Positions 3,463 through 45,808 of a stretch of 47,987 nucleotides of DNA are shown in pieces. Under the pieces are notes generated by a model. The model was not told the DNA's origin. It did no database searches and saw only the letters and a list, made by a program, of their open reading frames with translations. This DNA comes from a virus. The stretch is taken from the IMG/VR virus record IMGVR_UViG_3300037558_000967, positions 1-47,987 of that record, one strand, 5' to 3'. The position numbers and the translations under genes are program-made. The first letter of the stretch is position 1. The number at the start of each line of letters is the position of its first letter.

Positions 3463-3626
3463 GAACTTTTTAAAGTATTTTCTAGATCACTTAATTTTTC
3501 CTTAACTCTATTGATGCGACCTTGAGTTACTCCCGTGTAATCTGAACGCATCCACTTGATCTTGTCATCTATGTCATCAAGAATATCTAACTGATACGAG
3601 TACGTACTTAGTGTGTCTCTGCCCAT
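3459..3626 (-). CDS. Small hypothetical protein overlapping the polymerase end
   Basis: A 55-codon frame starts with ATG inside the last codons of the DNA polymerase gene (in ...LTWAETH) and ends with TGA inside the -35 box of the ssb promoter. The product begins MGRDTLSTYSY and is rich in Asp, Lys and Leu, probably helical. There is no strong Shine-Dalgarno sequence, so it would depend on coupling to the polymerase. It fills an otherwise empty gap in a compact genome; function unknown. Confidence 0.5.
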   Translation of the reverse strand: MGRDTLSTYSYQLDILDDIDDKIKWMRSDYTGVTQGRINRVKEKLSDLENTLKSS

Positions 3627-5482
3627 GTCAATCCAATCTTACTTTCTGCGTCCAACGGGACGTTCATGTTTAGCTTACGACCTGCTTCACGGATAGCTTC
3701 TTCTGCTATCGCAGCGTGGTCGTAAACGTAATCAGGGTGTACGTCGTGCTGCCATTCATCGTGAATGTCTCCTACCTTAAGGCTGTCGAGCTTAAGCTGA
3801 CGAATCCAAGCGTCGAGGATACACGCACCTAGGGCCATAACCCTAGCTCCACCTCCTTGAAGTTTGTAATTAAGGGCAGCGTGAGGCGAAGGACAGATAA
3901 TCTGAGAACCATCAATAAGAGAAACCCTACCCTCGGCTTGTTCTCGCTTACACTCTTCCATCAAGTCACCTATACCTAGACGATCAAGAAAGAGTTGCCT
4001 GATTTTCTCACCCTCGGGAGATACCTCGTACTCGTTACCTCTCCTGTCTTTCTTAACGAACACTGGCAACCCAAGTTGTTTACCAATCTTAGGAGGACCA
4101 GCACCGTAGAGAATAGCGTAGATTAAAGTCTTAGCCTCAGGCCGAGTGATACCTACTACGTCTGCGTTGTACTGGTGGGGGTCACCTTCGACGACCTGTT
4201 TGGTGAAATCTGGACGGTTAAGGTAGTGAGCAAGCATCCGCAGTTCGAGGCCCGCTGCGTCAGTTCCAACAAGAAATCGCTCAGGCCTTGCGGTCCACAA
4301 ATCTCTTGACTCGTATGTAAAGTAACCATCTTTGCCGAGGAGGGGGCGTCCTTTATCTCCCACCCTGACTGCTGGAATGTTTGCAGTGTTAGGTGCTTGG
4401 TGTCTGAATCTGAGCGTATCTGCAACAAACAGTTTACCGTGTATTTTTGAGTCATTTTCACTGTATGCCTCCAGCCAAGTGTTAATCATGTTGGCACGAC
4501 CGTTGACACTCATCCAAGTAGCAATCAGTCGGACCTCGGGTACATCCTCCTCGTCAAGGAATTCCTCAAGAGAGGGGCTTAGTTTCCCTTTGTCGAACGG
4601 CTTCGGGTTCCCGCCGCCACCTTTCTTGGTTTTTGGGGTAAACTCTTTCGGTTCCCAACCGAGGGATACAAGCTTATCAATTCGCTGTGCAGGCGACCCA
4701 AGGTTGAACTCAACATCTTCATACGCATCATACGTTCCGTCGTCGGATGGCTCGATGTGGTATCGCTCAACATCGCGTTGATATATGGATGTAAGGACTC
4801 CAGCTTTCGTGTACATATTTCTTTTTGCAACGTGTACTCTTTCTGCTGGAAATGCTTTTCGGATTTCATCCGTGAGTTCATGTTCAATCTCCCTTAGTTC
4901 TTGATACAAAGCAAGAGCACGAGCACCATCAAAGTAGAACCCGTTCTTCCTTTGTTGCTCAATAATCTCGGTCATACGGTGCTGTATCCAGATGCTACGC
5001 TCGTCGAAGTCAATCGAGTTAAGTGTTCGCATCAGACGGATAAACAGCTTAGCTGTGATGTAAACGTCCATGTGACAGTACTCTACCATTTCATCGGTGA
5101 GCTGGGAGAAATCATCGAACTGGATTTTGTTGTGTCCCATGCGCTCACCCCAAGCATCCAGAGAGTGACCACCGGAGATACTCGGACTGTAGAGGGTGCT
5201 CAGTACAAGCGTGTCGATGCAGTTACTACTGTTCAAACCTACATCGAAGAACTTGTTGAGGACGGGGGCGTCGAACTTGAGAATGTTGTGACCAACATAC
5301 ACCGTGTTCTGTTCTCGCTCGGAGAACCATTGAGCGATTTCATCGTGACCGATACACGCCCCCTTTTCGTTTGTCTTTAGGTTCCTCCAGCACATACACC
5401 AAATGACGCTAGGGAAAAGACTGTCACCTTCAATGTCAATTACGTAGGTACTTTGGGCCTGTTTTTCCCAATCTTTGTACAT
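3608..5482 (-). CDS. Family A DNA polymerase with 3'-5' exonuclease (T7 gp5-like)
   Basis: The 624-residue replicative polymerase is close to T7 gp5 (704). The N-terminal proofreading domain shows DIEGD (D16, E18), GHNILKFDAPVL and a YCHMDVYIT motif. The polymerase domain shows motif A VGTDAAGLELRMLAHYL, motif B RPEAKTLIYAILYG and motif C GDIHDEWQHDV. In motif B the residue equal to E. coli Phe762 is Tyr, as in T7, a state usually linked to virulent phages. No thioredoxin-binding loop can be judged by eye. ATG 5482 follows GGAGA by 7 bases. It acts with the primase-helicase directly upstream. Confidence 0.96.
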   Translation of the reverse strand: MYKDWEKQAQSTYVIDIEGDSLFPSVIWCMCWRNLKTNEKGACIGHDEIAQWFSEREQNTVYVGHNILKFDAPVLNKFFDVGLNSSNCIDTLVLSTLYSPSISGGHSLDAWGERMGHNKIQFDDFSQLTDEMVEYCHMDVYITAKLFIRLMRTLNSIDFDERSIWIQHRMTEIIEQQRKNGFYFDGARALALYQELREIEHELTDEIRKAFPAERVHVAKRNMYTKAGVLTSIYQRDVERYHIEPSDDGTYDAYEDVEFNLGSPAQRIDKLVSLGWEPKEFTPKTKKGGGGNPKPFDKGKLSPSLEEFLDEEDVPEVRLIATWMSVNGRANMINTWLEAYSENDSKIHGKLFVADTLRFRHQAPNTANIPAVRVGDKGRPLLGKDGYFTYESRDLWTARPERFLVGTDAAGLELRMLAHYLNRPDFTKQVVEGDPHQYNADVVGITRPEAKTLIYAILYGAGPPKIGKQLGLPVFVKKDRRGNEYEVSPEGEKIRQLFLDRLGIGDLMEECKREQAEGRVSLIDGSQIICPSPHAALNYKLQGGGARVMALGACILDAWIRQLKLDSLKVGDIHDEWQHDVHPDYVYDHAAIAEEAIREAGRKLNMNVPLDAESKIGLTWAETH

Positions 5483-5525: not shown

Positions 5526-5657
5526 TTAAACCCGTGAAAGTAGGTCTTCTTGGTACTTTTTAGGTACTTCGTGCCAAAAATCTACTGCAGCAGGGCTTCC
5601 CGCTGTCTCTTCACAGTACAATTTCCACGCTTTTTCAATCTTATCCGTCCATTTCAT
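5526..5657 (-). CDS. Small hypothetical protein (43 aa) overlapping helicase end
   Basis: The frame starts at ATG 5657 inside the last codons of the helicase gene and reads MKWTDKIEKAWKLYCEETAG onward, ending LLSRV. It bridges most of the gap between helicase and polymerase. Coding seems likely because the overlap style (start within the upstream stop region) is used throughout this operon, but the Shine-Dalgarno sequence is weak (AGGA, 10 bases). Function unknown. Confidence 0.55.
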   Translation of the reverse strand: MKWTDKIEKAWKLYCEETAGSPAAVDFWHEVPKKYQEDLLSRV

Positions 5658-7272
5658 CGAACTCGTGTCCTGTGTTGGTACCACCGTGCTCGTACTCGTA
5701 GGCTAGTTCGTCGGACAGTTCGTCCAACCGACCAGTCATTTCGTTGTAGTGAAGGTAGCAAGCAGGACCAGTGCGACCATACTTACGGTTCTTCTCTACG
5801 GTGATACGGGTGATGTTACGACGCCACTCGTTCAAGTCCTTCTTGTCACGTTCAAGACGAAGGATGAGGTTGGCGACTTGCTCAGGGCCAGCCGAGCCAC
5901 GGACCTGTCCTTGCCGGTTAACGTGGATAACGCAGAACACAGCAATGTCGAGGTTCATGGTTAGCGTCTTGATCTTGGTGCTAATCTCGTCAAGCTGCTT
6001 ACGTTCATCCCCAGACTGGTCAGACACAATAATGGACAAGTGATCGACCATAATGTACTTACAGCCCAGAGCTGCCATGTGTCGGATTTTGGCAAGGACA
6101 ACATCAATGTCGTTGCTACCAAAGTGATCCCAAATAACGACACGATCCGTGTTGATGGTTTCTTCATAAGCTTCTGCAAGCTCCTCTTCCGTACGCTCCA
6201 CGTCAGGGAAGTGATACGGCTTGTTCTTGTGGATGGACATCAGACCAAGGGCCAAGTCACGCTTCGGTTCTTCAAGGTGAAGGAAGCCGACACCGACATC
6301 CTCTTGCTTGAGTTCCTCGTTGAACAGGAGGGCGTACTCGATCTCCTTCATCACACTCGTCTTACCGATACCAGTCTCAGCAGTCATAAGCACAAGCTCA
6401 CTGGTACGAATACCAAAAGTCTTGGAGTTAAGACCCTTCCACGGGTACGGAATAGAGCGAGGCTCCACGTACTTGAGAATTTCATCCTTTAGACGAGCGT
6501 CTGAGCCCAACTGGATACCATCTGGCATGTAAGTGGGGGCACGATACCACTCGTCCACGTAAGCCTTTCCTTGGCCTTCTAGGAGGTAGTCGTTGGCGTC
6601 CTTGAACTTGTCTAGCTTGAGGATTTTAACCTTGCCGGGATCGAACAAGATGGCACACTCTTTAGCGGCTTTCTGTCCGGGATCATCGCTGTCAAAGTTG
6701 AAGATGATAGTCTCAAATGAGTTTAGGTACTCGAAGTTAGCCACTACTTCCTTCTTCGCTGACGACGCACTCATGACAGCTACGTTGGGGTAACGAGAGC
6801 CGGTGATCTGGAACGCTGCCATAGCGTCGTACACACCCTCGGTTACAGTGATCGATCGACCACCTTGCGGGAAGGAGTTCTGACCAAAGAGCTTGGTGTC
6901 CTTGATGGTCCCCTCTGTCTTGAACTTCTTACCCTCGTACCGCACTTGGTTACCGACGTGCTGGTTGTCCTGCGAGAACTTCGGGAAGACAGCCTCGATA
7001 GGGTTGTCGTCCTTCTGGCTCACGGACACCTGATACTTGGCAACCGTCGTAGCGTCTAGACCACGAGCCTTGATACCCGGCATCTTGACAGATGGCAACG
7101 GGATAATATCTGTAGTACTTTTCTTTTCCAATTTAGCGATGGCTCCCTTGTTATTATAGTTCTTGTGGTAGTCGCAATCGAACCCGAAGCAGTGCTCGTG
7201 GTCGTCGTAAATCCCTAGGTTGTCCTCACTACCGCACTTTGGACAGGTGTCGTGACGGACGAAATTTGACAA
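5641..7272 (-). CDS. Primase-helicase (T7 gp4-like)
   Basis: The 543-residue fusion unwinds DNA and makes primers at the fork. In order it has a zinc finger (CPKC at about 10-13, then HCFGFDCDYH), a TOPRIM domain with VTEGVYDAMAAF and IIFNFDSDDPGQKAA, and a RecA-like hexameric helicase. The helicase has Walker A AETGIGKTS, Walker B YIMVDHLS, and a C-terminal VIHVNRQGQVRGSAG segment like the DnaB H4 region. The length is close to T7 gp4 (566). The start is TTG at 7272 with GGAGGG 7 bases upstream. The gene lies just upstream of the polymerase, as in T7-like replication blocks. Confidence 0.95.
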   Translation of the reverse strand: MSNFVRHDTCPKCGSEDNLGIYDDHEHCFGFDCDYHKNYNNKGAIAKLEKKSTTDIIPLPSVKMPGIKARGLDATTVAKYQVSVSQKDDNPIEAVFPKFSQDNQHVGNQVRYEGKKFKTEGTIKDTKLFGQNSFPQGGRSITVTEGVYDAMAAFQITGSRYPNVAVMSASSAKKEVVANFEYLNSFETIIFNFDSDDPGQKAAKECAILFDPGKVKILKLDKFKDANDYLLEGQGKAYVDEWYRAPTYMPDGIQLGSDARLKDEILKYVEPRSIPYPWKGLNSKTFGIRTSELVLMTAETGIGKTSVMKEIEYALLFNEELKQEDVGVGFLHLEEPKRDLALGLMSIHKNKPYHFPDVERTEEELAEAYEETINTDRVVIWDHFGSNDIDVVLAKIRHMAALGCKYIMVDHLSIIVSDQSGDERKQLDEISTKIKTLTMNLDIAVFCVIHVNRQGQVRGSAGPEQVANLILRLERDKKDLNEWRRNITRITVEKNRKYGRTGPACYLHYNEMTGRLDELSDELAYEYEHGGTNTGHEFDEMDG

Positions 7273-9993: not shown

Positions 9994-10056
9994 TCATCTC
10001 CCTCCGTGTTTGTGTTCGTGATACAGGTCAGCTAGTCGTTGTTCGTCTTTAGTCAT
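9994..10056 (-). CDS. Possible 20-residue peptide
   Basis: The frame MTKDEQRLADLYHEHKHGGR fits between two genes, overlapping the stop of the upstream membrane gene (ATGACTAA) and ending in the Shine-Dalgarno region of the 110-residue gene. It may be a real peptide or only a coupling device. There is no independent evidence. Confidence 0.35.
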   Translation of the reverse strand: MTKDEQRLADLYHEHKHGGR

Positions 10057-10243
10057 AAGATGTACCCTTCTCTAGTGACCAGCTCGCTGCTGCAACACCG
10101 GCTATAAATATTACGCCTCCGATAGGGATTGATGAAAGCCCTAGTATAGTCCAACCAACAGCAAGAATACCAAATCCAAATATTGCTATAGTGATTGCTA
10201 AGATGAAAAACAGGAGGAAAGTTGCGATTTTAATGTGTTCCAT
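10049..10243 (-). CDS. Small two-pass membrane protein
   Basis: The 64-residue product has two hydrophobic segments (from ATFLLFFILA and from LGLSSIPIGGVIF) with a short turn between them. ATG 10243 follows GGAGGA by 7 bases and is preferred to the upstream in-frame start. It could belong to the amide-ligase cassette (membrane-side partner) or be unrelated. Confidence 0.75.
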   Translation of the reverse strand: MEHIKIATFLLFFILAITIAIFGFGILAVGWTILGLSSIPIGGVIFIAGVAAASWSLEKGTSYD

Positions 10244-10418
10244 TTCTAAATCCTCCGTTGTAGTTGCCGGGCTGTGGCTCGCCCAACTCATGACACAACT
10301 GTCGTATCTGACCGATGTGATACTCTCGACTCTTTTTCGAGAGACCTAGATTACATACACACTGACTGTGATAATCAGGTTCCTCGGTTTTTCGTTGAAT
10401 CTCACTTGGGTTAGGCAT
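10230..10418 (-). CDS. Small Cys/His-containing hypothetical protein
   Basis: The 62-residue product begins MPNPSEIQRK and contains HSQCVC and a later LCHE, so metal binding is possible. ATG 10418 overlaps the last codons of the ATP-grasp gene (AAATGCCTAA), suggesting coupled translation and membership of the same cassette. Function unknown. Confidence 0.7.
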   Translation of the reverse strand: MPNPSEIQRKTEEPDYHSQCVCNLGLSKKSREYHIGQIRQLCHELGEPQPGNYNGGFRNGTH

Positions 10419-11208
10419 TTTGAAAAAACTCCTTGTAATCTTTGACCGTCGAACCTTCCAGTCCGGGGGCGGTGTTGATCTCCAAGACATACGCTTTCTT
10501 CTCGTGGTTGTTCCAGATAACGTCCACTGCACCGAAGTCGAGGTCAAGACTCAGAAGAGTGTCCTTAGCCACCTCAATCACTTCGTCTGGGGGTTTGACC
10601 TCAGACCTAGCGTAGATGAAACCGTTAGCGTGGTTACGTACTTGCCAGTTAGGATCAGGGTGTTCGAGACGCCGCTTCTTCTGTTGAAGAGAGATCACAA
10701 CGTAATTGTACTGCCATCCACTATTCTCTGGTTCGTGGTCATTATCTCCTACCCAGATGAGCTTACGTCCGACGTGGACCCGGTACTCGTCTTTCTTTTT
10801 TACGTACTTCGTGTAGAGAGAACAAGGCACGAGAGAACTGCGATCAGCAGCCACAACAATACCAGCACCGCTGTGTCCTTGTAGAATCGTGCGGCAAACC
10901 ACAGGGAATGCATCCTCTGGGATGTCATTCGGACTAGTCCAGAAAAGAGGAAGGTAAGGTTTGCCCTCCAGTTTCCTAAAAAATTCGAGCTTATTTGTAG
11001 CATTGGCAAGTTTATCTCCATCGTTGTTTATTGTTGCCCGGCTGGCTTCCGAGCTGTTACCCCAGTTGATGATAACATCTGAATCTTTAGGACGAAACTT
11101 ACTACCTTCAAGTTTCAGAACTCGTCCTCCTAAGGCATCTGCAAGAGCTTTAGCCCCTTTGCTGCCTTGTTTGTAAGGGAGAACCCTTACTCTTTTATTC
11201 GAAATCAT
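10411..11208 (-). CDS. ATP-grasp ligase (RimK-like) of the peptide cassette
   Basis: The 265-residue enzyme should activate a carboxylate as acyl-phosphate with ATP and join it to an amine. It has INWGNS near the N-terminus, a central nucleotide-binding segment CRTILQGHSGAGIVVA (loop with GHSG), YVKKKDEYRVHV and the metal-binding motif VLEINTAPGLEGSTV near the end. ATG 11208 follows GAGGA and overlaps the end of the upstream amidoligase by 14 bases, so the two are probably made together. Its likely substrates are amino acids or peptides; the product is unknown. Related genes sit beside amidoligases in phiEco32-like phages. Confidence 0.88.
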   Translation of the reverse strand: MISNKRVRVLPYKQGSKGAKALADALGGRVLKLEGSKFRPKDSDVIINWGNSSEASRATINNDGDKLANATNKLEFFRKLEGKPYLPLFWTSPNDIPEDAFPVVCRTILQGHSGAGIVVAADRSSLVPCSLYTKYVKKKDEYRVHVGRKLIWVGDNDHEPENSGWQYNYVVISLQQKKRRLEHPDPNWQVRNHANGFIYARSEVKPPDEVIEVAKDTLLSLDLDFGAVDVIWNNHEKKAYVLEINTAPGLEGSTVKDYKEFFQNA

Positions 11209-12277
11209 CGTAATCCTCTTCTTCCGTTTCTGGGTGGAATACTGCCGGTTCTGAGATACTTTGCAAGTAAGTTTCACTCACAAGACCGTTATACAGTTGT
11301 ATCATAGTTGAATTTGTAGGTTTCTTTGATCTACCAAACGGATCAACCTTGACTTCACCTTCCCTAAACTTCGACCAATCTCGGCAGTAACACAAGTCTT
11401 GCGCAAGCCTGATACCTTCGTAAAGCGAAGACATAACCTGATCGTGGCTAAACCCTGACCCGGATATAACAGTGTTCGTGTACGGACCTAGGATAGTGTT
11501 AATATAATCCAAGGGGCCGTTCCCTGAGAACCCTTCCACGACGTACCGGGGGTCCTTATAGTCGGCACTCAATTCATATATACGTTGTAGGATTTCTACC
11601 CAAGTTTTAATAGTCTCAGCCTCGGTTACACCACGAAGAGTACGAATCTCAATTGAACCGTGTTTAAGCAAGGAGTGACAGTTCAGGCCAGCGTAGTGCA
11701 TACCTTGAGTAGGGCGTACTTGACCATCACTCGCGATGAAATCCTTGATCTGGGATACGATACTGGTGGCGTCTTTGGACCTCAGACAAAAGAGATTCCC
11801 TACTCGGTGGTCGCCACACCAGTGCGTGAGCATATCCTCCAGTGAGAAGTACATAGCAAGAAACGAAGTCATCCTGTTAAGGTGCCAACCTTGGGCATTC
11901 AGGTGCACATGAACAGAAGTTCTGTTACTATCGTCTAGTTTAGACCCGTAACTTTCGAACATAGCCCACAGTTTATCTACTGCACTAGGAACTTGAGAAA
12001 ACTTGATAGGACGTTTCAGGATATACTCTGCGTTGTCCTCACCCCTCAAAGACCCATCGTGAACGAATTTCCACTCAGAAGGGATGAACTTACTGTCTCC
12101 TTGGTTTATCTGATAACCACCACTCTTTGGAAACTTGTTGCCTTCTACTTCAACTTCAATACCAACGTCACCTTTCACAGGAGGATGCCCAAGAACAGCT
12201 CCGATGTTGTAACTTGGTTCATCTTTTGCAGGGTTAATCTTAAAAAAGTCAGCAGGAATCGGTACGCTTTTAGTCAC
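11195..12277 (-). CDS. Amidoligase (glutamine synthetase/GCS2-like fold)
   Basis: The 360-residue product matches the putative amidoligase enzymes related to gamma-glutamylcysteine and glutamine synthetases. Core motifs are VGIEVEVEG (metal-binding acids), WKFVHDGSL, RTSVHVHLN, a YFSLEDML helix and HGSIEIRTLRG, whose Glu and Arg end the catalytic barrel. It would form an amide bond using ATP. GTG at 12277 follows AAGGAGA by 6 bases and is preferred over the TTG 12 codons upstream. It lies between an unknown gene and the ATP-grasp gene inside the cassette. Confidence 0.87.
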   Translation of the reverse strand: MTKSVPIPADFFKINPAKDEPSYNIGAVLGHPPVKGDVGIEVEVEGNKFPKSGGYQINQGDSKFIPSEWKFVHDGSLRGEDNAEYILKRPIKFSQVPSAVDKLWAMFESYGSKLDDSNRTSVHVHLNAQGWHLNRMTSFLAMYFSLEDMLTHWCGDHRVGNLFCLRSKDATSIVSQIKDFIASDGQVRPTQGMHYAGLNCHSLLKHGSIEIRTLRGVTEAETIKTWVEILQRIYELSADYKDPRYVVEGFSGNGPLDYINTILGPYTNTVISGSGFSHDQVMSSLYEGIRLAQDLCYCRDWSKFREGEVKVDPFGRSKKPTNSTMIQLYNGLVSETYLQSISEPAVFHPETEEEDYDDFE

Positions 12278-12296
12278 TTTGAATCTCCTTTGCAGT

Positions 12297-13058
12297 TTAT
12301 TTCTGATCTTCAATAGAACTGAAAGCGCTCAGTTCATTAATCACTTCTCTACAGTGTCCGTAACCTCTTGCAAGAGCTAGTTTGGAGGTGTCTCCGTTAG
12401 GCATGAACCCAACAATATCTTCTTTGTAGGCAAGAAACATCATGTCTAGAGGTCCTCTCAAGACAGCGAACTCTCGGTGGAATGCAGCAGAATTGTTCTG
12501 AGTTGAAGGGTCAGACAGTCTAGATATAACTTCATTGAGGCTTGGATACTGGTTAGTATAGCACAAGTACGCCGCATTAGAGGTGATGCTAGGGGCACTG
12601 TGAGGAACGGAGTTCTTACCACCTTTCATCAGCAAATCTATGGCTCGAACCTTAAGCATACCTTGGGTAAGGCCCTGTTGAGTGTGTCTCGTAGGGCTTC
12701 TGCGTGTATAAAATACCCGACCGGATAAGTCGCAGTTAACCATCCCAACAGGAAACGGACGGTACTTGTTAAACAAAGGGGAATTGGCCATCTTTCGTAT
12801 AATACCCTCGTCAGGGTGCTTTTCCAGCCACTCGTCCATAGCGGCCCCTCCGTAGTCGTACGGTACGTTGAGTCCACGTGCGTGAGCAAGACCACCCTTC
12901 TGTCCAAGTTTGTCCAAATAAATCCTGAAAATACCGTCATCCTTGTGGTCGTCTATCGCCAGCACGTAACAGGGCTCTCCATCATACATAACGACAGTGT
13001 GCTGTAGACGCATCCTAGCTTCTTTCAAGGTTTCATAGAAATTCTTGTGGTTTGCCAT
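12297..13058 (-). CDS. Unknown cassette protein (253 aa)
   Basis: I do not recognise this family. The product starts MANHKNFYETLKEA, has an N-terminal beta-rich part with YDGEPCYVLAIDDHKDDG, a central basic stretch near RRSPTRHTQQ and no membrane segment. It sits tightly between the two carboxylate-amine ligases (3 and 19 bases away), with AGGAG before its ATG, so it is probably a dedicated partner or substrate carrier of the cassette. It could equally be a structural protein. Confidence 0.8.
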   Translation of the reverse strand: MANHKNFYETLKEARMRLQHTVVMYDGEPCYVLAIDDHKDDGIFRIYLDKLGQKGGLAHARGLNVPYDYGGAAMDEWLEKHPDEGIIRKMANSPLFNKYRPFPVGMVNCDLSGRVFYTRRSPTRHTQQGLTQGMLKVRAIDLLMKGGKNSVPHSAPSITSNAAYLCYTNQYPSLNEVISRLSDPSTQNNSAAFHREFAVLRGPLDMMFLAYKEDIVGFMPNGDTSKLALARGYGHCREVINELSAFSSIEDQK

Positions 13059-13061
13059 TGA

Positions 13062-13907
13062 TTAAATGCTCCTGATAGGGAAGTTGTAAATCGCGGATAG
13101 ATCACGGTCAAGTTTACCAGTGTTGATGCTTTTCACTACCCTGTCATTAAACTTGTACGATTTGAACTGTGAGGACTTTTCACAATCCTCTGGGAAATAC
13201 TGTCTTGCCATCTGCTTGAGAGCTGTTTGCATGCGATCCCAGACCCAACGACGATAGTTCGGAGACATTACCCAGTAGTTGCTGAGAACTCGATACTCAA
13301 CACCGTAAGGTTTGAACCTCATCGCGCCAGCTTTACCGTATAGACTACGTCGCGTTTGGTCTTTGTCTATCATAACAGATGGTGCTCCTAGGAACCAGTC
13401 TAGTTGTTTTACTAAATCTGTAGCGGCTTCGACGTAGTCTTCATCGTCAGTACTAGCCCCTTCTGTCCACCCTATGTGTATGTGACCAGCAGCAGTACGC
13501 ATACGAGGAGTTTTATCCCCGTCAGGTGGTGGATTAATCTCTTTAGTCCACGCATTGAAATCTGGTGAACACCCAAGCTGTTTTGCGTCGTCCGGTGCGC
13601 TGTCCCACACCTTTTCACTGAAAGTAAAGGAAGGAGCCGGTAGAAGTTTGCAACCGTCAGGTAGGCGTTTGGATAATTCTCTAAGTACTCGACGGAAATT
13701 ATCATCCCACTCCTTGTAAGAGGTTACAGGGTTTATGTTAAACTCAGCGGCCATCCCGTCTCGCTGTAGAGCACCGCCATCTACAGGTTCTGGGTTTTCT
13801 TTAGTTCCTTCCAAGAAAGTAGGGCACACACCTACTCCGTTACGATCTACAACGAACAACTCGGGGTCTGCACCGAACTTCATGTCAGGGAAAGCATCTA
13901 TTGGCAT
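13062..13907 (-). CDS. phiEco32-like COOH-NH2 ligase, type 2
   Basis: The 281-residue product matches the carboxylate-amine ligase family first named from phage phiEco32. GADPELFVV (residues about 12-20) carries the first metal acids, QRDGMAAEFNINP the second, and AGHIHIGW the histidine pair. The region from LDWFLGAPSVMID to GVEYRVLSNYW closes the active site. It has the glutamine-synthetase-like fold and should form an amide bond with ATP. AAGGAG precedes ATG 13907. It is the second of two different GS-like ligases in this cluster, which suggests at least two bond-forming steps. Confidence 0.9.
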   Translation of the reverse strand: MPIDAFPDMKFGADPELFVVDRNGVGVCPTFLEGTKENPEPVDGGALQRDGMAAEFNINPVTSYKEWDDNFRRVLRELSKRLPDGCKLLPAPSFTFSEKVWDSAPDDAKQLGCSPDFNAWTKEINPPPDGDKTPRMRTAAGHIHIGWTEGASTDDEDYVEAATDLVKQLDWFLGAPSVMIDKDQTRRSLYGKAGAMRFKPYGVEYRVLSNYWVMSPNYRRWVWDRMQTALKQMARQYFPEDCEKSSQFKSYKFNDRVVKSINTGKLDRDLSAIYNFPIRSI

Positions 13908-13928
13908 TTTCAGTTCTCCTTTTCTAGG

Positions 13929-15080
13929 TTAAGCAGTTTTTCGCTTTGATCCGAAATACTGTTCGTATCTCTCGGGATCGGCGTGGACGATATTTCGATG
14001 AGTTTCACCGGAACAACAATTACCGACGAGTTGGTCAGTCCTCTCCCAAATGATAACCCCCAAGTCGTCATATTTGACTTCTTTCCCACACCAACTACAT
14101 CCGTACTTGGCAATCTCGTCGAAGTCTGTTTTGTCTATATAATTAGCGAAAGGACGGTGAGAATCACCGCCAAGCTCAATAATAGGCTGTTGATTAAATG
14201 AAAGGACTGTACATTCCGTGGTATCCGTAGAGGAGTTCGAGGTCTTCTTCGACTGTTGTTGGTTTCCCAGAAAAGGGGCGGTTCCTGCCGAAGCTGACGC
14301 AGTAAACGTCTTACCTTTTATCTCTTCAGTTGTCCAGTCGGGCGGAGTTTTCTTACCTTTAGACGCAAGCTCCTCTAGATCAATCGTGTAAAGCATGTTG
14401 TCCTTAAGAGGGAAATAGGTGTAACCTTCTTCATCCTCCCACAATTCGTACGGGGTTTTGGAAGACTCGACAGCCGATTGAATCATCCAACTCTCAGAGG
14501 CCCAGATAATCTTGGTAAGGTCCTTGCTGTAAGCACACCAAAGCGGTCGGTGCTTGTTCTTAAGGAGATACAAAACCTTTTCTTCTGCATCAAACCACGT
14601 GAGCGCCCAAGCGCCTCTCTGGGGAGTAACTCCTTCGTGCACCATCTCGATAGTGTTCTTAACACCGATTTGGTCAATTGCGTTGAACAACGCCGCACTG
14701 TCTACGTTGGTGGTGGTACCCGTCTCCTTATCAAGGTCGTCCCAGTCACATTGCATCAGGGTTCCGTTGTGAGCACCCACGATGCTGCCAAACTTAAATG
14801 GGTGGGCGTTAACTCCGTTTACCTTACCCATAGTAGCAGCGCGATTGTGACCAAGAAACACGAGAGACTGTGCTCCGTTAATTCCACTGTCAAACTGTTT
14901 CATGTTAAATAGGTCAATTGGGTGGCTAGGGAGTTTCACGATGCTAATGTCACCGTTCTTCTTAAGCCATGCCGCCCCGGTACTGTCGGTACCCCGGAAA
15001 TAATCGAAGATCAGGAGCCTCTTGAACAAGGATTCATCCTTGAACTCAAGATTACCTGCTACACCTACTAAACCGCACAT
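13929..15080 (-). CDS. Class II glutamine amidotransferase-like protein
   Basis: The 383-residue product starts MCGLVGVAG, so the catalytic Cys becomes residue 1 after Met removal, which fixes the start at 15080 and not at the upstream frame. GHNRAAT, AHPFKFG and GAHNGTL are the class II signature, followed by DSAALF and GAWALTWFD. It would release ammonia from glutamine or cleave a gamma-glutamyl bond. The C-terminus (about 325-383) has CSWC and NCCSG, a possible zinc ribbon not typical of the core family. It lies between the class I-type hydrolase and the type 2 ligase, within 2 and 21 bases. Confidence 0.9.
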   Translation of the reverse strand: MCGLVGVAGNLEFKDESLFKRLLIFDYFRGTDSTGAAWLKKNGDISIVKLPSHPIDLFNMKQFDSGINGAQSLVFLGHNRAATMGKVNGVNAHPFKFGSIVGAHNGTLMQCDWDDLDKETGTTTNVDSAALFNAIDQIGVKNTIEMVHEGVTPQRGAWALTWFDAEEKVLYLLKNKHRPLWCAYSKDLTKIIWASESWMIQSAVESSKTPYELWEDEEGYTYFPLKDNMLYTIDLEELASKGKKTPPDWTTEEIKGKTFTASASAGTAPFLGNQQQSKKTSNSSTDTTECTVLSFNQQPIIELGGDSHRPFANYIDKTDFDEIAKYGCSWCGKEVKYDDLGVIIWERTDQLVGNCCSGETHRNIVHADPERYEQYFGSKRKTA

Positions 15081-15081
15081 A

Positions 15082-15903
15082 TTATGCTGTCTCCTTACCT
15101 GTAATTCGTTTAAGTTTCGGTCGTTGGTCGATGACATCTTGTTTCAACCGTCGAACACCATCAACAAGATGTAGGTCAGGGTTCTCAACAAGGAGTTCCT
15201 GAATCCTCAACAAAGTCCAGTACCGAAACTGTGTGAAATCCCTGTACTCCGGGTGACCTTGGACCCCGAAGAAACATGCTCTTCGGTAGAAGAAGGCCTC
15301 AATGTCGGCGCTAGTGCCAGTCTCACGTACTGTTGGACTGGTGTATCTCTCACTTGACCGTCCTTGAGCAACACCGAGAATCTGCATTCCGGGTCGTTTC
15401 TGCACCATCTGATGATGTACGCTGGAGATGTTAGGAATAATACGATTTTCGTCATTCAACCACATACCGTGAGAAGAGTTGTGATTGTTGACGTGCTGAT
15501 AGAGTTTACCGCCCAAAGCAACGTGCCCCATTTGGGCACCACGACAAATGCCCATCATCGGGATACCTTTGTCGTAGCAATAGTTCCACAACTCGAAATC
15601 TTGAGCATCTCGTTTTGGGTCACAAAACGTTTTTGAGTGTTGATGCTCTCCATAGAGGTGAGGTTGTACGTCTGCCCCTCCCCCAAAGATAACTAGGTCC
15701 GCCTCGTCAGGTGTAGACGCTTTACGACACTTACCACCGACCATCATCATCTCAGAAATTAGCCGTTCTTCTACTGCACTTTCTGCTGCAATGTAGACTT
15801 CTGCCCAAAGATCGGGCCACTCTACAGCGCTCCCTCTCCGTATCTGGACAATGAAACTGTTGTCGCTGTTCTTGTTAGTTGGTTTGCTTTTGTTCTTCGC
15901 CAC
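15082..15903 (-). CDS. Class I amidotransferase/peptidase C26-like hydrolase
   Basis: The 273-residue product resembles gamma-glutamyl hydrolases such as PuuD. FGGGADVQPHLYG is the oxyanion region, GICRGAQ carries the nucleophile Cys, and VQGHPEY carries the catalytic His and Glu. It should hydrolyse gamma-glutamyl amides or peptides, or supply ammonia. The start is GTG 15903 with GGAG 7 bases upstream. Finding class I and class II types side by side, next to ligases, suggests building and trimming of a gamma-glutamyl-type product. Confidence 0.88.
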   Translation of the reverse strand: MAKNKSKPTNKNSDNSFIVQIRRGSAVEWPDLWAEVYIAAESAVEERLISEMMMVGGKCRKASTPDEADLVIFGGGADVQPHLYGEHQHSKTFCDPKRDAQDFELWNYCYDKGIPMMGICRGAQMGHVALGGKLYQHVNNHNSSHGMWLNDENRIIPNISSVHHQMVQKRPGMQILGVAQGRSSERYTSPTVRETGTSADIEAFFYRRACFFGVQGHPEYRDFTQFRYWTLLRIQELLVENPDLHLVDGVRRLKQDVIDQRPKLKRITGKETA

Positions 15904-16084
15904 GTGTTTCTCCGTGTTTACGTTCGTGAATAGCTGTTACTACGACAGCTACGTGATGTAGATGCTTGAAAGCCTCTCGTTCGAGATTTATCCAGTTACA
16001 GTAGTAAGCTTCGTGTAGGTGCTCTTCCAGTGACAGGATACGAGTTCTTTGTTGGACTCGTTTACGTTGTTTCCAGAAACTCAT
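15875..16084 (-). CDS. Small basic hypothetical protein (69 aa)
   Basis: The product begins MSFWKQRKRVQQ, is rich in Arg, Glu and His and is probably helical. AAGGAGGA lies 9 bases before ATG 16084. It overlaps the hydrolase gene by 29 bases and heads the tightly packed ligase block after a non-coding gap. Function unknown. Confidence 0.7.
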   Translation of the reverse strand: MSFWKQRKRVQQRTRILSLEEHLHEAYYCNWINLEREAFKHLHHVAVVVTAIHERKHGETRGEEQKQTN

Positions 16085-16404
16085 TCAAAATTGATCCTCC
16101 TTTAAAGGTTCAAGCTAAAGATGGCCGCTACTGCGAACCTCCACTTCCTTGTTTATAACCCCACCCTCACGGTGGTCCGGGTTTTCACACCCTTACACTC
16201 GTGGTGTGTTCGGCATCATGTTAGACGTTAAGGGGTATTACAGTCAGCACCTAAGGCCGTATGATTTACGAGCGATGATACATCTATCAAGCACCTCGAC
16301 AGGGACAGACACTTTAATTGGTGGTTGAAGTGAGAGGACTTGAACCTCTCTTTATGGAACACCACTACGTTGTAGTAGCGGCCATCTCTCATCAAGACAA
16401 CCTC
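16085..16404 (-). other. Structured non-coding spacer with hairpins
   Basis: No convincing gene lies here. Visible structure includes CCACC-CTCAC-GGTGG (16161-16175), CACACC (16186-16191) with GGTGTG (16203-16208), and an inverted repeat AGGTTC/GAACCT around 16107-16140. A 13-base inverted repeat GATGGCCGCTACT (16120-16132) recurs on the other strand at 16374-16386. The right end holds a tRNA-like element. No T-run follows the hairpins on the minus strand. It separates the 260-residue gene from the ligase block and may control passage of transcripts or their processing. Confidence 0.55.
16322..16394 (-). ncRNA. tRNA-like element lacking a D-arm
   Basis: On the minus strand a T-arm AGAGG-TTCAAGT-CCTCT is followed by CACTTCA, then A and an encoded CCA. 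The 5' piece TGATGAG pairs with CACTTCA at 5 of 7 positions. The middle is one long hairpin, CGCTAC-TACAAC-GTAGTG, with a 6-base loop, and there is no D-arm. It may be a decayed tRNA, a tRNA mimic or a chance likeness; no anticodon can be assigned. Confidence 0.35.
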
Positions 16405-17187
16405 TTACGAGGCCGTCACGGGAGCCGACTTCTTAGCAGCAACACTAAACGGTGCGGGTTTGGACGCCGCAGCAGGCTTCAGATTAGCTGCCTCCCGTTG
16501 GGTAGCAAGCTGTTGTGGCTGATTCGAGCGACGACCAGCAAGAGTGATAGGCACTCCTTCCTTCTCCAGCTCAGCGCGGGAGTAGAACACACCCTTGGGA
16601 AGCTCGTTGTACAGCTTCGTGTGAACCTCGGTCTGCTCCGTAGCCAGCTTCTTCCCGTCAGGGATGGTCTGCCATGCTTCGGGGACGACCTGATCCAGCT
16701 CGGTCCACTGGGACGGAGGAGTGAACGGGTCTTTGATGCGGCCTGCCGAGATGTTACGGAACAGAGCGAACAGGTAGTTCGGCTTCGGTGAAACCTTGCC
16801 TTCAAGTTTCGAGCCAGTGTATACCGAGTTGTCAATAGCTCGGATGAACTCAAAACCCTCTTCCTTGAGAATCTTGAGCCACTTGTACCCAACACTCTCT
16901 TTGTGTGTTACCTGCCACTCGGTCAGGATAGCGAAGAAAGCGTGGTTGGGCATGTCGTTGCTGTTGAACGTGCCGTACCGCAGACGCTGGCGGAAGATTT
17001 CGCCGTACGTCTTGCCTGCGAACTTCGGCCCGCCCTCACTGTGGGGGATGGGATTGCCACCGTCTCCGCCGACCAGCTCGATGCTGGCCTTCTCGTCGGG
17101 ATCGACCTTGAAGTTCTGAATGATGTCTGCTGCACAACAACCCCAGTATGCGCCGGGAATACTACTGCCAAAACGTAAAAACTCCAT
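16405..17187 (-). CDS. Conserved-looking hypothetical protein (260 aa)
   Basis: I do not recognise a named family. The N-terminus MEFLRFGSSIPGAYWGCCAA has a Cys pair and is glycine- and aromatic-rich. The middle contains ELVGGDGGNP and NYLFALFRNISAGRIKDPFT, and the last 50 residues are a low-complexity Ala/Lys/Pro/Gln tail. There is no membrane segment. It starts at ATG 17187 overlapping the upstream stop (TAATG). Its place beside the peptide cassette makes it a possible substrate or partner, but a virion or host-takeover role is equally possible. Confidence 0.8.
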   Translation of the reverse strand: MEFLRFGSSIPGAYWGCCAADIIQNFKVDPDEKASIELVGGDGGNPIPHSEGGPKFAGKTYGEIFRQRLRYGTFNSNDMPNHAFFAILTEWQVTHKESVGYKWLKILKEEGFEFIRAIDNSVYTGSKLEGKVSPKPNYLFALFRNISAGRIKDPFTPPSQWTELDQVVPEAWQTIPDGKKLATEQTEVHTKLYNELPKGVFYSRAELEKEGVPITLAGRRSNQPQQLATQREAANLKPAAASKPAPFSVAAKKSAPVTAS

Positions 17188-17399
17188 TAGAATGTTACCT
17201 CCAGTGTGTCGCCTTCATAGATTTCCTCGCCTTTAAGTTCTTTAAGGGTTTTATAATCTCTTATTACGCTCTCCTCACCGTTGAGATTGCACCTGCCATA
17301 AATCTTCCCGTCTCTTTCGTAGTAGATACAATTTTCGATTAATGTTGCGACTGGTTTACGTTTCCCACAATCTTTTTTAATTTTGAATCTGTTGTTCAC
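17187..17399 (-). CDS. Small hypothetical protein (70 aa)
   Basis: The product begins MNNRFKIKKDCGKRK and continues beta-rich, with three Cys. GTG 17399 follows AGGA by 7 bases and is preferred to the upstream TTG. It is coupled to the next gene by a TAATG overlap. It lies just left of a plus-strand promoter, so it may be exposed to antisense transcription. Function unknown. Confidence 0.65.
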   Translation of the reverse strand: MNNRFKIKKDCGKRKPVATLIENCIYYERDGKIYGRCNLNGEESVIRDYKTLKELKGEEIYEGDTLEVTF

Positions 17400-17438
17400 G
17401 TTAATTTCCTTTCTTTTCAATAGTTAGTGATTTTTTAC

Positions 17439-17466
17439 TTGACAAATCTGAAAAATGTGATATAAT
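17439..17466 (+). promoter_or_regulatory. Consensus sigma70 promoter facing against the leftward operon
   Basis: TTGACA (17439-17444) and TATAAT (17461-17466) are perfect with 16 bases between. It points right, while every gene nearby is on the minus strand, so its transcript would be antisense to the 179-residue gene and the gamma-glutamylcyclotransferase gene. Downstream it resembles the late promoter (TATAATAT, then TATAGAG). Confidence 0.85.
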
Positions 17467-17496
17467 ATCTTTATAGAGCACCGTCCCTAAAGATAT
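17465..17496. repeat. 9-bp inverted repeat at the antisense promoter start
   Basis: ATATCTTTA (17465-17473) and TAAAGATAT (17488-17496) are perfect inverted arms 14 bases apart. They overlap the -10 box and the expected transcription start of the plus-strand promoter. It could be an operator for a dimeric regulator, or a hairpin in the leftward RNA. Confidence 0.6.
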
Positions 17497-17506
17497 ACAC
17501 TAAGAG

Positions 17507-18046
17507 TTAAGAACTAAGGAAGGGGGCCGGAGCAGGCTTCTTTGTGTTCTTCTTTTTCTTTTTGTTGTACCTTTCGTAGTACTTCGGGTCCATACGGAGC
17601 TGGAAACAGATAACGTAGTTGCCAGAGTTGCTGTTGTACCATCTGTTCACCTTTCGGAACCCGAGGGCTCGGATTATTGGAAACCACTCCCTCTGACTAA
17701 ACCAATCACTGTTGTTCAGATACTTTTCCTCGATTTTTTGTTTCGGGTCTTTCTCACACTTGTGGCCTCCACCATAACCATCAACCAAGGTTATCTGAAA
17801 TACTTCATAAACCTTTTCTTCTCGGATATGTTTAAGCATATCTCTGAGGCGCTCTCGGGCAGTCTGCTTAGGAAACCTGAAAAAGAACGCGTCTTTGTCT
17901 CTGTATCCGTGGTCGCCTCCGTACTCGTGGTTACCGGGTTCCCCAGTTTCGTAAGGTTCGAAAACTTCGTCAGGGTTTGATCCAAACCCAAATATGTGTT
18001 TCAGTCCGCAGCAGTTACCGCCGTCAGCTACACAACGAATAGTCAT
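17507..18046 (-). CDS. Hypothetical protein (179 aa) with Cys-rich start and Lys-rich tail
   Basis: The product starts MTIRCVADGGNCCGLKHIFG, with three Cys, followed by acidic and glycine-rich stretches. It ends with a run of lysines and a Pro/Ala tail. No family is recognised. ATG 18046 lies 1 base after the stop of the gamma-glutamylcyclotransferase gene, so the two are probably co-translated, which hints at membership of the cassette. Confidence 0.75.
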   Translation of the reverse strand: MTIRCVADGGNCCGLKHIFGFGSNPDEVFEPYETGEPGNHEYGGDHGYRDKDAFFFRFPKQTARERLRDMLKHIREEKVYEVFQITLVDGYGGGHKCEKDPKQKIEEKYLNNSDWFSQREWFPIIRALGFRKVNRWYNSNSGNYVICFQLRMDPKYYERYNKKKKKNTKKPAPAPFLSS

Positions 18047-18047
18047 G

Positions 18048-18422
18048 TTACACTACCTCCTTCTTCTGCTCGATCAAGTGACAGTTTTGTCCTTTTTCGT
18101 CACCAGTGAACTCAAGCCAATCACCTGACTTAATGAGCCGGTCCAGCGGAGGCTCACCGTTGTAGACATATATGAAGTCATCACCCACTCTCTCACGAAT
18201 GTAAAGAGAAACTTCAGGGGCTTCTTCCCTGTACCCCTCGTAACCGTCGAGAACAGCGAGGTGGGCATCATCGAGAATTTCGATACGCTCACACGTAATC
18301 TTCCCGTCACCGCGACAAACCCCCGGAAACCATCCGAGGTTGAACATCTGGAAGCCTTCGACTTCGACGGTTTCACCGAGGCCGGGACGCAACGTGCCGT
18401 ACACGAGAGCGGTGCGAGCCAT
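18048..18422 (-). CDS. Gamma-glutamylcyclotransferase-like protein
   Basis: The 124-residue product has the family's phosphate-loop-like motif LVYGTLRPGLG at its start and LDGYEGYR, whose Glu is the expected catalytic acid. These enzymes release 5-oxoproline from gamma-glutamyl amines or gamma-glutamyl peptides. The upstream open frame is discarded because MARTALVYGTLR is the normal family start. It is the most upstream enzyme of the peptide cassette, and together with the two glutaminase-like proteins it points to gamma-glutamyl chemistry. Confidence 0.88.
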   Translation of the reverse strand: MARTALVYGTLRPGLGETVEVEGFQMFNLGWFPGVCRGDGKITCERIEILDDAHLAVLDGYEGYREEAPEVSLYIRERVGDDFIYVYNGEPPLDRLIKSGDWLEFTGDEKGQNCHLIEQKKEVV

Positions 18423-43086: not shown

Positions 43087-44991
43087 TTATAGGTTTACTT
43101 CACATGAGTTACCAACACAGGCAAATTCTTGGCTGGCAGTTGTGTGATCTTCCTGTTCGTAGTGTTTCAACTCGTCCCAGTCGATCTCAGGTAGAGGGTG
43201 TTTCTCTATCCATTCGTTGTACTCCTTCTCCGTAATTTCTTGGTAAGGAGCTTGTCGATAAGACCCACCATCAAACGGAAGAAAAGATACTCCACTAAGT
43301 TTGTCAAACTTGTTGTAGACCCAAGCTGCAACATCCATCCACTCATCATCTTTGACGTTGATCGTCGCGGACGGCTTGTGTTCACACCAATTGTCCTGAA
43401 GTTTCTCCCAAAGGTTAAGCATGTCTACAGCGGTCATGTCATCCCTAGTAACAGCACCGTCAGGGCTTTTGACAGGGAAGTAGAACACCGTAGTAGAGTC
43501 CGGTTTGTTTAGGTCCGGTTCGTTAAACACGCCTTTATCTTTGAGAAACTCTGTGATAGGGTCTTTGTTATCCGCACGAACAGTTCGCAGATAGTAAGGA
43601 CTGTGACGAGTGTGTAGACCGCTAGCAGAGTCAACAAGCTGACTAACAGTGCCGCTAGGTTTGACACAAGTGATAGCAGCAGATTGAGGGATGTTGAGTC
43701 TTTCAGCCCACTCCTTGTTAACCTCAACCGACACTTCACGGAGTCTATTAAGAACAGAGTCTCCCACCAGAAGTCCGAGATTGTCACAGACACCTGTGAG
43801 GGAAACCCCAAGAAGCCGTTCTTCATCGCAATTGTCCTTCCATTTCTTCCTCAGGTACTTGAAGTCTGTGAAAGTTGACTGTATCGTTCCAAGTATTGTT
43901 GCAAGTCGTACCTTTGTTTTGAGGCTGTCCAGATCATCTGTTGATCGTACAACAACCTCGGTAAGGTTACAAAACTCGAATGGCCTGAGGATAATCTCGC
44001 TGCAAGGGTTTGTGCCGAAATCAAACGACGGATCACGACGCCCATTTCTTCCTGCAATTCCTTGGCAAGCGTAACGGGAGAACAGCCCGGGCTCTCCTGA
44101 TTTACTGTCATAGAGTTCATTCCATTTTCCCATGAAGAACCCAACGTCAGGGCGACGATTGTCGTACACCGCTGAGTTGTTGGAGTAGCTTCGGTTAGGT
44201 TGGTGCTCCCACCAAGCGCCGTGCTTGGCTTTGTTCATTCGGTCGTCAGTAACATCAAACAACGAGATCATGGCAGAACGACGGACACCACCAACGATAA
44301 CTGTGGCAGCAATCTGCATCATAATGTCGTGACACTCGATGCTAGTCAGTCGTCGACCAGCCGCCGAACGGAACATGTCAACACAGAACTTGAAGAGATC
44401 GACTAGCGGTTCTGGTCCGCTTGCCCGTCCTCCAAACGTCTTGAGTCTAGCTCCGGCGGGACGAACCTTAGAGACATCCCACGAAGGAACTTGTCCAGCG
44501 ATGAGAAGGGAGATAAGCTCTCGAAGAGCTTTAGCCCACCCCTCTTTAGAGTCTGCAACCTTGATGATTGTTTCTGTTTCACTGAACTCCTCACTGATTT
44601 TAGGAAGCTGGTCGATGTACTTGCCCTCAACAGAGAACCCTACACCAGTGCCACACATAAGAATGTACATGGTTTCGTCAAACGAACGAGGACTGTCAAC
44701 AGGAAGATAAGCACAGTTGTACGCAGCAACGTGACAACGATCAAGGGCAGGGCCTGCTGTCATCATTGCTCGCATACTGGGCATTACGTCAAGGTTGTAG
44801 ATAGCGTCGTAAAGCTGGTCAAACTCGTTGAACGCCCCGTCCCAGTTGATAGCCTTACCGTAGTAAGACACCAACCGCTGTACCGTCTCATCCCAATTCT
44901 CACGACGTCCTTCGCTCTCTAGCCAACGAGCATACCTACTCTTGTGGATAAACTCCTGATACGGAGAATTAAAAGGGTTAAGGTCTTTCAT
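43087..44991 (-). CDS. nrdJ: Class II (B12-dependent) ribonucleotide reductase, monomeric type
   Basis: The 634-residue product turns NTPs or NDPs into deoxynucleotides with adenosylcobalamin. It has an N-terminal substrate/effector region with CHVAAYNCAYLPV (first active-site Cys), the glycyl-barrel finger NPCSEIILRPFEFCNL (radical Cys and Glu) and a second redox Cys region. The C-terminal shuttle cysteines are in CVGNSCEVNL. Its length fits the monomeric phage/Lactobacillus type. It works with ThyX and the pool enzymes upstream. Confidence 0.93.
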   Translation of the reverse strand: MKDLNPFNSPYQEFIHKSRYARWLESEGRRENWDETVQRLVSYYGKAINWDGAFNEFDQLYDAIYNLDVMPSMRAMMTAGPALDRCHVAAYNCAYLPVDSPRSFDETMYILMCGTGVGFSVEGKYIDQLPKISEEFSETETIIKVADSKEGWAKALRELISLLIAGQVPSWDVSKVRPAGARLKTFGGRASGPEPLVDLFKFCVDMFRSAAGRRLTSIECHDIMMQIAATVIVGGVRRSAMISLFDVTDDRMNKAKHGAWWEHQPNRSYSNNSAVYDNRRPDVGFFMGKWNELYDSKSGEPGLFSRYACQGIAGRNGRRDPSFDFGTNPCSEIILRPFEFCNLTEVVVRSTDDLDSLKTKVRLATILGTIQSTFTDFKYLRKKWKDNCDEERLLGVSLTGVCDNLGLLVGDSVLNRLREVSVEVNKEWAERLNIPQSAAITCVKPSGTVSQLVDSASGLHTRHSPYYLRTVRADNKDPITEFLKDKGVFNEPDLNKPDSTTVFYFPVKSPDGAVTRDDMTAVDMLNLWEKLQDNWCEHKPSATINVKDDEWMDVAAWVYNKFDKLSGVSFLPFDGGSYRQAPYQEITEKEYNEWIEKHPLPEIDWDELKHYEQEDHTTASQEFACVGNSCEVNL

Positions 44992-45161: not shown

Positions 45162-45545
45162 TTAAAGTCCTTTCATGTCGGGCTTCTCGTAGCCTTCTGG
45201 TTTGAGAATCTTACCGTCCTCGCGTTTCACAACCTTGCCGTCGGCTCCAACCTTTGTCATGTTGTTGTCGGCTACTCGAGTGAAAGCTTCTTCACCGTCG
45301 ATTTCAAAGAAGTAGGCCAAACCAGACAAGGTGTACTGAGCATCGGCCCACTCCTTGACCATATTAGCACGAGTCTCTTCCGTTGGGTTAGAGATGTAGT
45401 CAGCCATTGCTTCATTAAACTCAGACAACTCTTCTGAGAAGCAATTAACAAACATGTTGAGACTGCCACCACTAGTGATAGTCCCGTTATCTCCGGCTCG
45501 GTGAAACTCAGCTACTCGGCCTTCTCGTGTAACATAAAAGTTCAT
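45162..45545 (-). CDS. PRA-PH / MazG-like nucleotide pyrophosphohydrolase
   Basis: The 127-residue all-helical product has the family metal-binding acids in SEELSEFNEA and MVKEWADAQYTLSG, followed by ALF-type helices and GKILKPEGYEKPD. Such enzymes hydrolyse NTPs or related pyrophosphates to remove toxic or unwanted nucleotides. It is part of the nucleotide-pool block. Confidence 0.8.
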   Translation of the reverse strand: MNFYVTREGRVAEFHRAGDNGTITSGGSLNMFVNCFSEELSEFNEAMADYISNPTEETRANMVKEWADAQYTLSGLAYFFEIDGEEAFTRVADNNMTKVGADGKVVKREDGKILKPEGYEKPDMKGL

Positions 45546-45546
45546 G

Positions 45547-45801
45547 TTAGTTCACTTCCTTTTTACTGAAAGCCTCTGGTTTAGGCATCATCATAAGCGG
45601 CCACTCAAATTCTGCTGGTTCGCTTACAATCACTTTGTCGTTTACCTGAAACACACAAACACTGTGAGTCAGTCCTCCGTCCTCATTCTGAAGAAACGAA
45701 GTAGCAACGTTGACACGATCAAGGAAAAGACCAAAATATTCTAGTACTTCCTCGTCGTCCCATTTCTCATTAATGTATTCTTTAAGTTCTGTTTTATCCA
45801 T
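45547..45801 (-). CDS. Small acidic hypothetical protein (84 aa)
   Basis: The product begins MDKTELKEYINEKWDD, acidic, and ends EAFSKKEVN. It lies 1 base upstream of the pyrophosphohydrolase gene. Function unknown; probable partner in the pool block. Confidence 0.65.
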   Translation of the reverse strand: MDKTELKEYINEKWDDEEVLEYFGLFLDRVNVATSFLQNEDGGLTHSVCVFQVNDKVIVSEPAEFEWPLMMMPKPEAFSKKEVN

Positions 45802-45808
45802 CGAGTAG

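Follow-up and report, generated by a model that had tools for sequence, protein, structure and literature searches.

Membership of an IMG/VR virus locus in a recurrent phage ligase cassette with interchangeable gamma-glutamyl-cleaving enzymes

The phiEco32, LUZ24, CW02 and HP1 phages carry what has been called a "peptidoglycan modification cassette" (PMC5498523; PMC10580990); in its account of this cassette PMC5498523 cites Iyer et al. and Hardies et al. 2013 for the RIO1-like/phiEco32-like phages. A locus of this kind was analysed on the minus strand, between positions 10411 and 18422, of IMG/VR record IMGVR_UViG_3300037558_000967, a virus of bacteria whose 47,987 bases were examined as a whole (the window). 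The locus is a member of this recurrent phage ligase cassette, and the system is already known in kind. As in the RIO1/phiEco32-like cassette, the window has the ligases, an ATP-grasp protein, an amidotransferase and a gamma-glutamylcyclotransferase (GGCT), placed among replication genes; unlike that cassette, it has both a hydrolase of the Peptidase_C26 family (C26) and the GGCT, together with an upstream pair of paralogs termed F14. The published passages on the cassette mention neither the core partner protein of 253 amino acids (aa) nor the interchange of C26 and GGCT that are reported here. The safest reading of the locus is a cytosolic, glutamine-fed pathway in which an amide-linked compound is built and a gamma-glutamyl group is removed.

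The best protein matches of the window were to Zobellviridae phages (e.g., Pseudomonas GP100 and PA11, Citrobacter CVT22 and Salinivibrio CW02); no GenBank phage was close to it at the nucleotide level.

Core enzymes, their co-occurrence and the C26/GGCT interchange

Protein families were scored by Pfam and PHROGs searches, and core residues were read from alignments of approximately 100 relatives. The original prediction, made from the window sequence alone, had placed six enzymes with intact core motifs at the coordinates given below; both points were confirmed, all six lying on the minus strand and the ATP-grasp ligase being identified by PHROGs and profile similarity. The two glutamine-synthetase-fold ligases were a COOH-NH2 ligase of phiEco32 type 2 (13062-13907; PF14395, 34.3 bits against a cut-off of 25; phrog_3815, E = 2e-74) and an Amidoligase_2 protein (11195-12277; PF12224, 45.5 bits against 22), the latter with a GTG start at 12277 in an open frame that reaches 12313. 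The class II glutamine amidotransferase (Ntn) domain (13929-15080) matched GATase_6 (46.9 bits against 27), the class I amidotransferase-like gamma-glutamyl hydrolase (15082-15903) matched Peptidase_C26 (PF07722, 84.8 bits against 20.5) and the GGCT-like (GGACT/AIG2) protein (18048-18422) matched GGACT (PF06094, 45 bits against 22.8). The RimK-like ATP-grasp ligase (10411-11208) matched the Pfam RimK/ATP-grasp models below cut-off only, missing the RimK gathering score (14.7 versus 21 bits); its identity came from phrog_2599 (E = 8e-65) and from a profile search that matched RimK chains at E = 1e-7 to 1e-9.

Core residues were invariant or nearly so in each enzyme family, and the window has them. 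They comprised D50, E55, H142, H144, E204 and R206 of the COOH-NH2 ligase (106/106 relatives), S88, E96, H135, H137, E222 and R224 of the amidoligase (104/104), E164, R166, K200, D252, E266 and N268 of the ATP-grasp ligase (103/103), C120, H217 and E219 of C26 (83/83) and E113 of GGCT (42/42), in which the YGxL motif was conserved at 98%. The class II protein carried the MCG start, GHNR, HNG and DS motifs; since it begins with MCG, its catalytic cysteine would be exposed once the methionine was removed. It also had a cysteine-rich C-terminal tail (CxxC...CC), with C347, C350 and C375 (longer-ORF numbering; ORF, open reading frame) approximately 90% conserved, and no recognised synthase domain.

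All of the nearest solved relatives that were found act on glutamate or glutamine chemistry. They were alpha-L-glutamate ligase, RimK and cyanophycin synthase for the ATP-grasp ligase (by profile search), a probable glutamine amidotransferase (7d4r) and PuuD for C26, YtfP for GGCT, and PurF and GFAT for the class II domain, which is therefore regarded as a glutamine-hydrolysing domain rather than as an enzyme shown to cleave a gamma-glutamyl bond in the product. The ATP-grasp proteins of two other cassette phages, Privateer (locus L017, 15238-17097; 619 aa) and Vp_R1 (L020, 14442-16694; 750 aa), have an extra region that gave no Pfam match.

To compare gene content, loci were drawn from annotated phages and from two collection scans, each started with a different COOH-NH2 ligase; the alignment profiles A1 and A3 (A3 being the amidoligase) were too divergent to be used in such a scan. 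A locus was regarded as adequately flanked when 7 kb or more lay on each side of the COOH-NH2 ligase (n = 81). The COOH-NH2 ligase, amidoligase, ATP-grasp ligase and class II amidotransferase were found together in all 81, rather than independently of one another, although kinship among phages inflates such counts. The flanked loci span the Zobellviridae, LUZ24-like, phiEco32-like and Grimontviridae phages and other relatives, and the same core was also present in crAss-like and Rhizobium phages. The gene order was mainly C26-GATII-CNL-p11055-AML-ATPG in Zobellviridae-like phages and CNL-p11055-AML-GATII-ATPG-GGCT in phiEco32/LUZ24-like phages (GATII, class II amidotransferase; CNL, COOH-NH2 ligase; p11055, the 253-aa family; AML, amidoligase; ATPG, ATP-grasp ligase). 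Primase-helicase genes flanked the cassette in 93 of 107 loci and DNA polymerase genes in 85 of 107. The COOH-NH2 ligase was essentially viral: it is present in more than 300 GenBank phage records, 576 IMG/VR stretches encode a relative, and only 8 contigs were recovered from the 84,980 bacterial and archaeal species genomes scanned. The locus is thus, as had been proposed, part of a linked phiEco32-type set in which enzymes that form amide bonds accompany enzymes that cleave gamma-glutamyl bonds, and which has no established product.

The 253-aa protein (12297-13058), which had been put forward as a partner of the ligases, is the fifth core part of the cassette. Its family, phrog_11055, was present in 77 of the 81 flanked loci, usually between the two glutamine-synthetase-fold ligases and beside them where the order differs. 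The phiEco32-type counterpart aligned with it by profile (E = 4e-6) and those of LUZ24 and HP1 did so more weakly. An AlphaFold2 model (pLDDT 94.2) had a fold unlike that of an enzyme; it gave no PDB match with E<0.001, matched models of viral proteins, including those of CW02 and Vp_R1, and its conserved residues formed no obvious catalytic set. The most likely role of this protein would be that of a non-catalytic scaffold or acceptor that holds the ligases.

C26 and GGCT replace each other. A search of whole records from 69 relatives and the window, some of them near-duplicates (Privateer appears twice), showed 26 with C26 alone, 23 with GGCT alone and 21, the window among them, with both enzymes; not one of the 70 lacked both. 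These states changed at least 13 times on the COOH-NH2-ligase tree, with four to five changes per label required by branches that were well supported. Swaps were seen among related phages, with C26 in cr108_1 and GGCT in phi14:2, and with C26 in PA11 and CVT22 and GGCT in HP1. In contrast to the original prediction, in which three bond makers were balanced by three breakers, one of these two enzymes suffices. Since C26 and GGCT belong to different families that share the cleavage of gamma-glutamyl groups, their replacement of each other points to a gamma-glutamyl removal step that the pathway would require.

Gene layout and the upstream region

In the direction of transcription the cassette begins with GGCT (18422-18048), followed by the short F14 paralog (17507-18046; 179 aa), an ORF of 77 aa (17187-17420), the long F14 paralog (16405-17187; 260 aa, with CC and GF..NS motifs), which the 77-aa ORF overlaps by 1 nucleotide (nt), and a gap of 501 nt; C26, the class II amidotransferase, the COOH-NH2 ligase, the 253-aa protein, the amidoligase and the ATP-grasp ligase (to 10411) then follow, all on the minus strand. 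Downstream on the same strand lie a primase/helicase (5641-7272) and a polymerase (3608-5482); the virion genes are on the opposite strand. The proposal of a single transcript holds in part. From C26 to the ATP-grasp ligase the genes are tightly packed (intergenic gaps of -14 to +21 nt), most of their starts being preceded by a purine-rich Shine-Dalgarno-like stretch, but the 501-nt gap separates this block from the GGCT-F14-F14 group, and a pattern scan did not decide whether the two share a transcript.

The long F14 protein had also been suggested as a partner, and in the nearest relatives of the window, of which the pair is typical, it is one, together with its short paralog; beyond them the association was not seen. 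The F14 family comprised 59 genes in 29 loci, mostly paired upstream of C26, and in more distant cassettes another protein of approximately 300 aa, of family F10 or not assigned to a family, lies at this position. The AlphaFold2 model of the long paralog (pLDDT 90.9) gave no PDB match with E<0.001 and only weak local GNAT matches. No homolog of the 77-aa ORF was present among the loci. Another suggested partner, the ORF at 10230-10418, fared less well, having no significant family match and no recurring homolog.

Within the gap, a stretch on the minus strand (16153-16390) that lacks a convincing gene is 77% conserved over 242 nt in locus L006 and contains a motif resembling a tRNA T-arm (AGAGGTTCAAGTCCTCT). 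Its folding z-score was -1.66, ARAGORN called no tRNA in it and Rfam no family, and after these checks the idea that a tRNA-like element lies upstream of C26 was rejected. Two promoters with a perfect sigma-70 consensus (12/12) were also observed: one at 17439-17466 on the plus strand, between the 77-aa ORF and the short F14 gene and directed against the cassette genes, and one at 9317-9289 on the minus strand, downstream of the cassette and in the same direction. The early region has a tRNA-Trp gene (anticodon CCA) at 2518-2591 on the minus strand.

Proposed pathway and alternative explanations

The reading that we favour, tentatively, is that the window holds a complete copy of the cassette and that its enzymes build an unusual amide or isopeptide compound from glutamate or glutamine in the host cytosol, with a gamma-glutamyl group being removed. 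The pathway would operate in the cytosol early in infection. The two glutamine-synthetase-fold ligases would activate carboxylates, by family precedent the gamma-carboxylate of glutamate, and couple them to amines; a peptide carboxylate would be lengthened by one amino acid through the action of the RimK-like ATP-grasp ligase, and the class II domain would free ammonia from glutamine for one of the ligases. C26 or GGCT would then strip the gamma-glutamyl group, which might be a temporary handle or a trimmed side product ("build and deprotect"), and the 253-aa protein might hold the ligases as a scaffold or serve as the acceptor. PuuA/PuuD and BtrJ/BtrG are precedents for this logic.

Cell-wall precursor peptides are the most likely acceptor, although this identification is weakly supported; altered early, they would keep out competing phages or shield the wall. 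In their passages on the cassette, PMC5498523 and PMC10580990 propose that the peptide side chains of peptidoglycan are altered to prevent superinfection. That proposal would suit cytosolic enzymes whose expression accompanies that of replication genes; no test of it was found in literature searches.

Several observations weigh against the favoured pathway or its wall acceptor. Profile searches found no solved relative for the COOH-NH2 ligase or the amidoligase, and for that reason the gamma-carboxylate specificity of both remains conjectural. C26 resembles hydrolases of the polyamine/GABA type and not a known cell-wall amidation enzyme; with regard to MurT/GatD wall amidation, no Mur ligase was present among the ten cassette proteins scanned against Pfam, and the class I protein matched C26 and GATase only, not a GATase_3-type GatD. 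An identical gene set occurs in phages of hosts as unlike as Bacteroidota and Pseudomonadota. The chance that no record would lack both C26 and GGCT, approximately 1e-6 if records are assumed to be independent, overstates the significance because the records are related. Literature searches found no product, substrate or mutant phenotype.

Modification of a protein and synthesis of a free metabolite are almost as likely as the wall reading. In the first case, a possibility that we consider serious though doubtful, the RimK-like ATP-grasp and glutamine-synthetase-fold ligases would attach glutamate or a peptide to a protein of the host or of the phage, on the model of the extension of the S6 C-terminus by RimK, and so reprogram the ribosome or polymerase, with C26 or GGCT trimming the addition. 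The closeness of the ATP-grasp profile to alpha-L-glutamate ligase and RimK is consistent with this explanation, and in some cassette phages arrays of small proteins with shared acidic C-terminal tails would be natural acceptors. The window and most cassettes lack such tails, however, several tails overlap the Shine-Dalgarno sequence of the next gene, and no acceptor protein was identified. Neither glutamine-synthetase-fold ligase matched the Pup ligase/deamidase Pfam family at E<1, and a Pup-like tag was rejected, the small genes beside the ligases having been examined and none found to recur across lineages.

The tail arrays were an observation in their own right. In some cassette phages many small, mostly non-homologous proteins, encoded inside or beside the cassette, end in one phage-specific acidic tail (loci L011 (CVT22), L010, L002, L003, L015, L253, L054, L059, L063, L065, L066, L068, L097 and L102). 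The tails seen were LENE, LEND, LENK, LEENV, GDTEEDI, EELI, ERLV, LEDW, MEEYL, LDEVF and KEDWL, including LENE in CVT22 (17 proteins by LEN count), LEND in Pecta, LENK in Asterion, LEEN in CW02, EELI in L054 and L059, LEDW in L065, and GDTEEDI in RHph_N3_19, the relative of which, L253, has QQGDKDEDI. Such arrays were found in 13 of 100 cassette loci and in none of 77 T7-like or 26 N4-like control loci (T4-like controls were too few for use); among further loci only 2 of 87 had one, and one of these was a second copy of CVT22. The coincidence of many tails with the Shine-Dalgarno sequence of an overlapping next gene is an ordinary explanation for part of the effect. Synonymous codons vary within the tails, which suggests some constraint at the protein level, and the tail persists in the final genes of arrays, where the Shine-Dalgarno sequence is disrupted (L054, L063); the tails of the Rhizobium phages look constrained as proteins. 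Given their absence from the window, their rarity in further loci and this overlap, the arrays were not retained as a clue to the substrate. It is improbable that the cassette tags the C-termini of small phage proteins with peptides while tail-less cassettes, that of the window included, use other acceptors.

The second of these alternatives, in which the product would be a soluble secondary metabolite or a modified amino acid or peptide (antibiotic-like, a signal or a resource) rather than a modified macromolecule, appears unlikely but deserves consideration. Glutamine-fed ligases coupled to gamma-glutamyl removal resemble the logic of the Puu and butirosin pathways, but the recurring families of the cassette loci included no carrier protein, oxidase, transporter or export gene.

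Hypermodification of DNA bases, by ligation of amino acids to phage nucleotides, would suit a cassette that adjoins primase-helicase and polymerase genes in a window that also encodes nucleotide-pool enzymes. It is nevertheless improbable, because a PurZ-type enzyme (adenylosuccinate-synthetase family) was present in none of 40 records and HaeIII digestion, ligation and sequencing all worked normally on DNA from phage tf, which carries the cassette (PMC3517423); furthermore, dGTP diphosphohydrolase was present in only 21 of the 40. The nucleotide-pool genes, on the minus strand at 45162-46727, encode a MazG-like protein, a YfbR-like dNMP phosphatase and the N-terminal domain of a dATP/dGTP diphosphohydrolase; a B12-type ribonucleotide reductase (43087-44991) lies nearby and no PurZ was seen. 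Finally, the suggestion of a peptide-decorated virion can largely be set aside, since, although capsid or tail proteins are conceivable targets of the ligases, the cassette sits with primase-helicase and DNA polymerase genes and the virion genes of the window are on the other strand.

Comparison with known systems

The cassettes of the GP100/PA11 and CVT22 phages have C26, the class II amidotransferase, the COOH-NH2 ligase, phrog_11055, the amidoligase and the ATP-grasp ligase in the order seen in the window; they differ in lacking GGCT and in having a family F10 protein in place of the F14 pair. Among characterised enzymes, the RimK/alpha-L-glutamate ligases and cyanophycin synthase share core residues and the best profile similarity with the ATP-grasp ligase, which nonetheless falls below the Pfam cut-off for RimK. 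The Puu/SpuA pathway likewise combines a glutamine-synthetase-fold ligase with a C26 hydrolase of the same fold families, whereas the phage ligases belong to other families of that fold and are joined by an ATP-grasp ligase and a class II amidotransferase. In butirosin biosynthesis the ATP-grasp enzyme BtrJ adds a gamma-glutamyl group and the AIG2-like cyclotransferase BtrG removes it; the window, in contrast, has no acyl carrier protein or other butirosin genes.

What the cassette makes has been asked since at least 2009. The present comparison narrows the problem down to five core parts and one of two interchangeable gamma-glutamyl-cleaving enzymes, and it provides a search target, namely a gamma-glutamyl intermediate in infected cells. 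The E. coli phages that carry the cassette (the phiEco32 group, e.g., Bas87) make the question directly testable.

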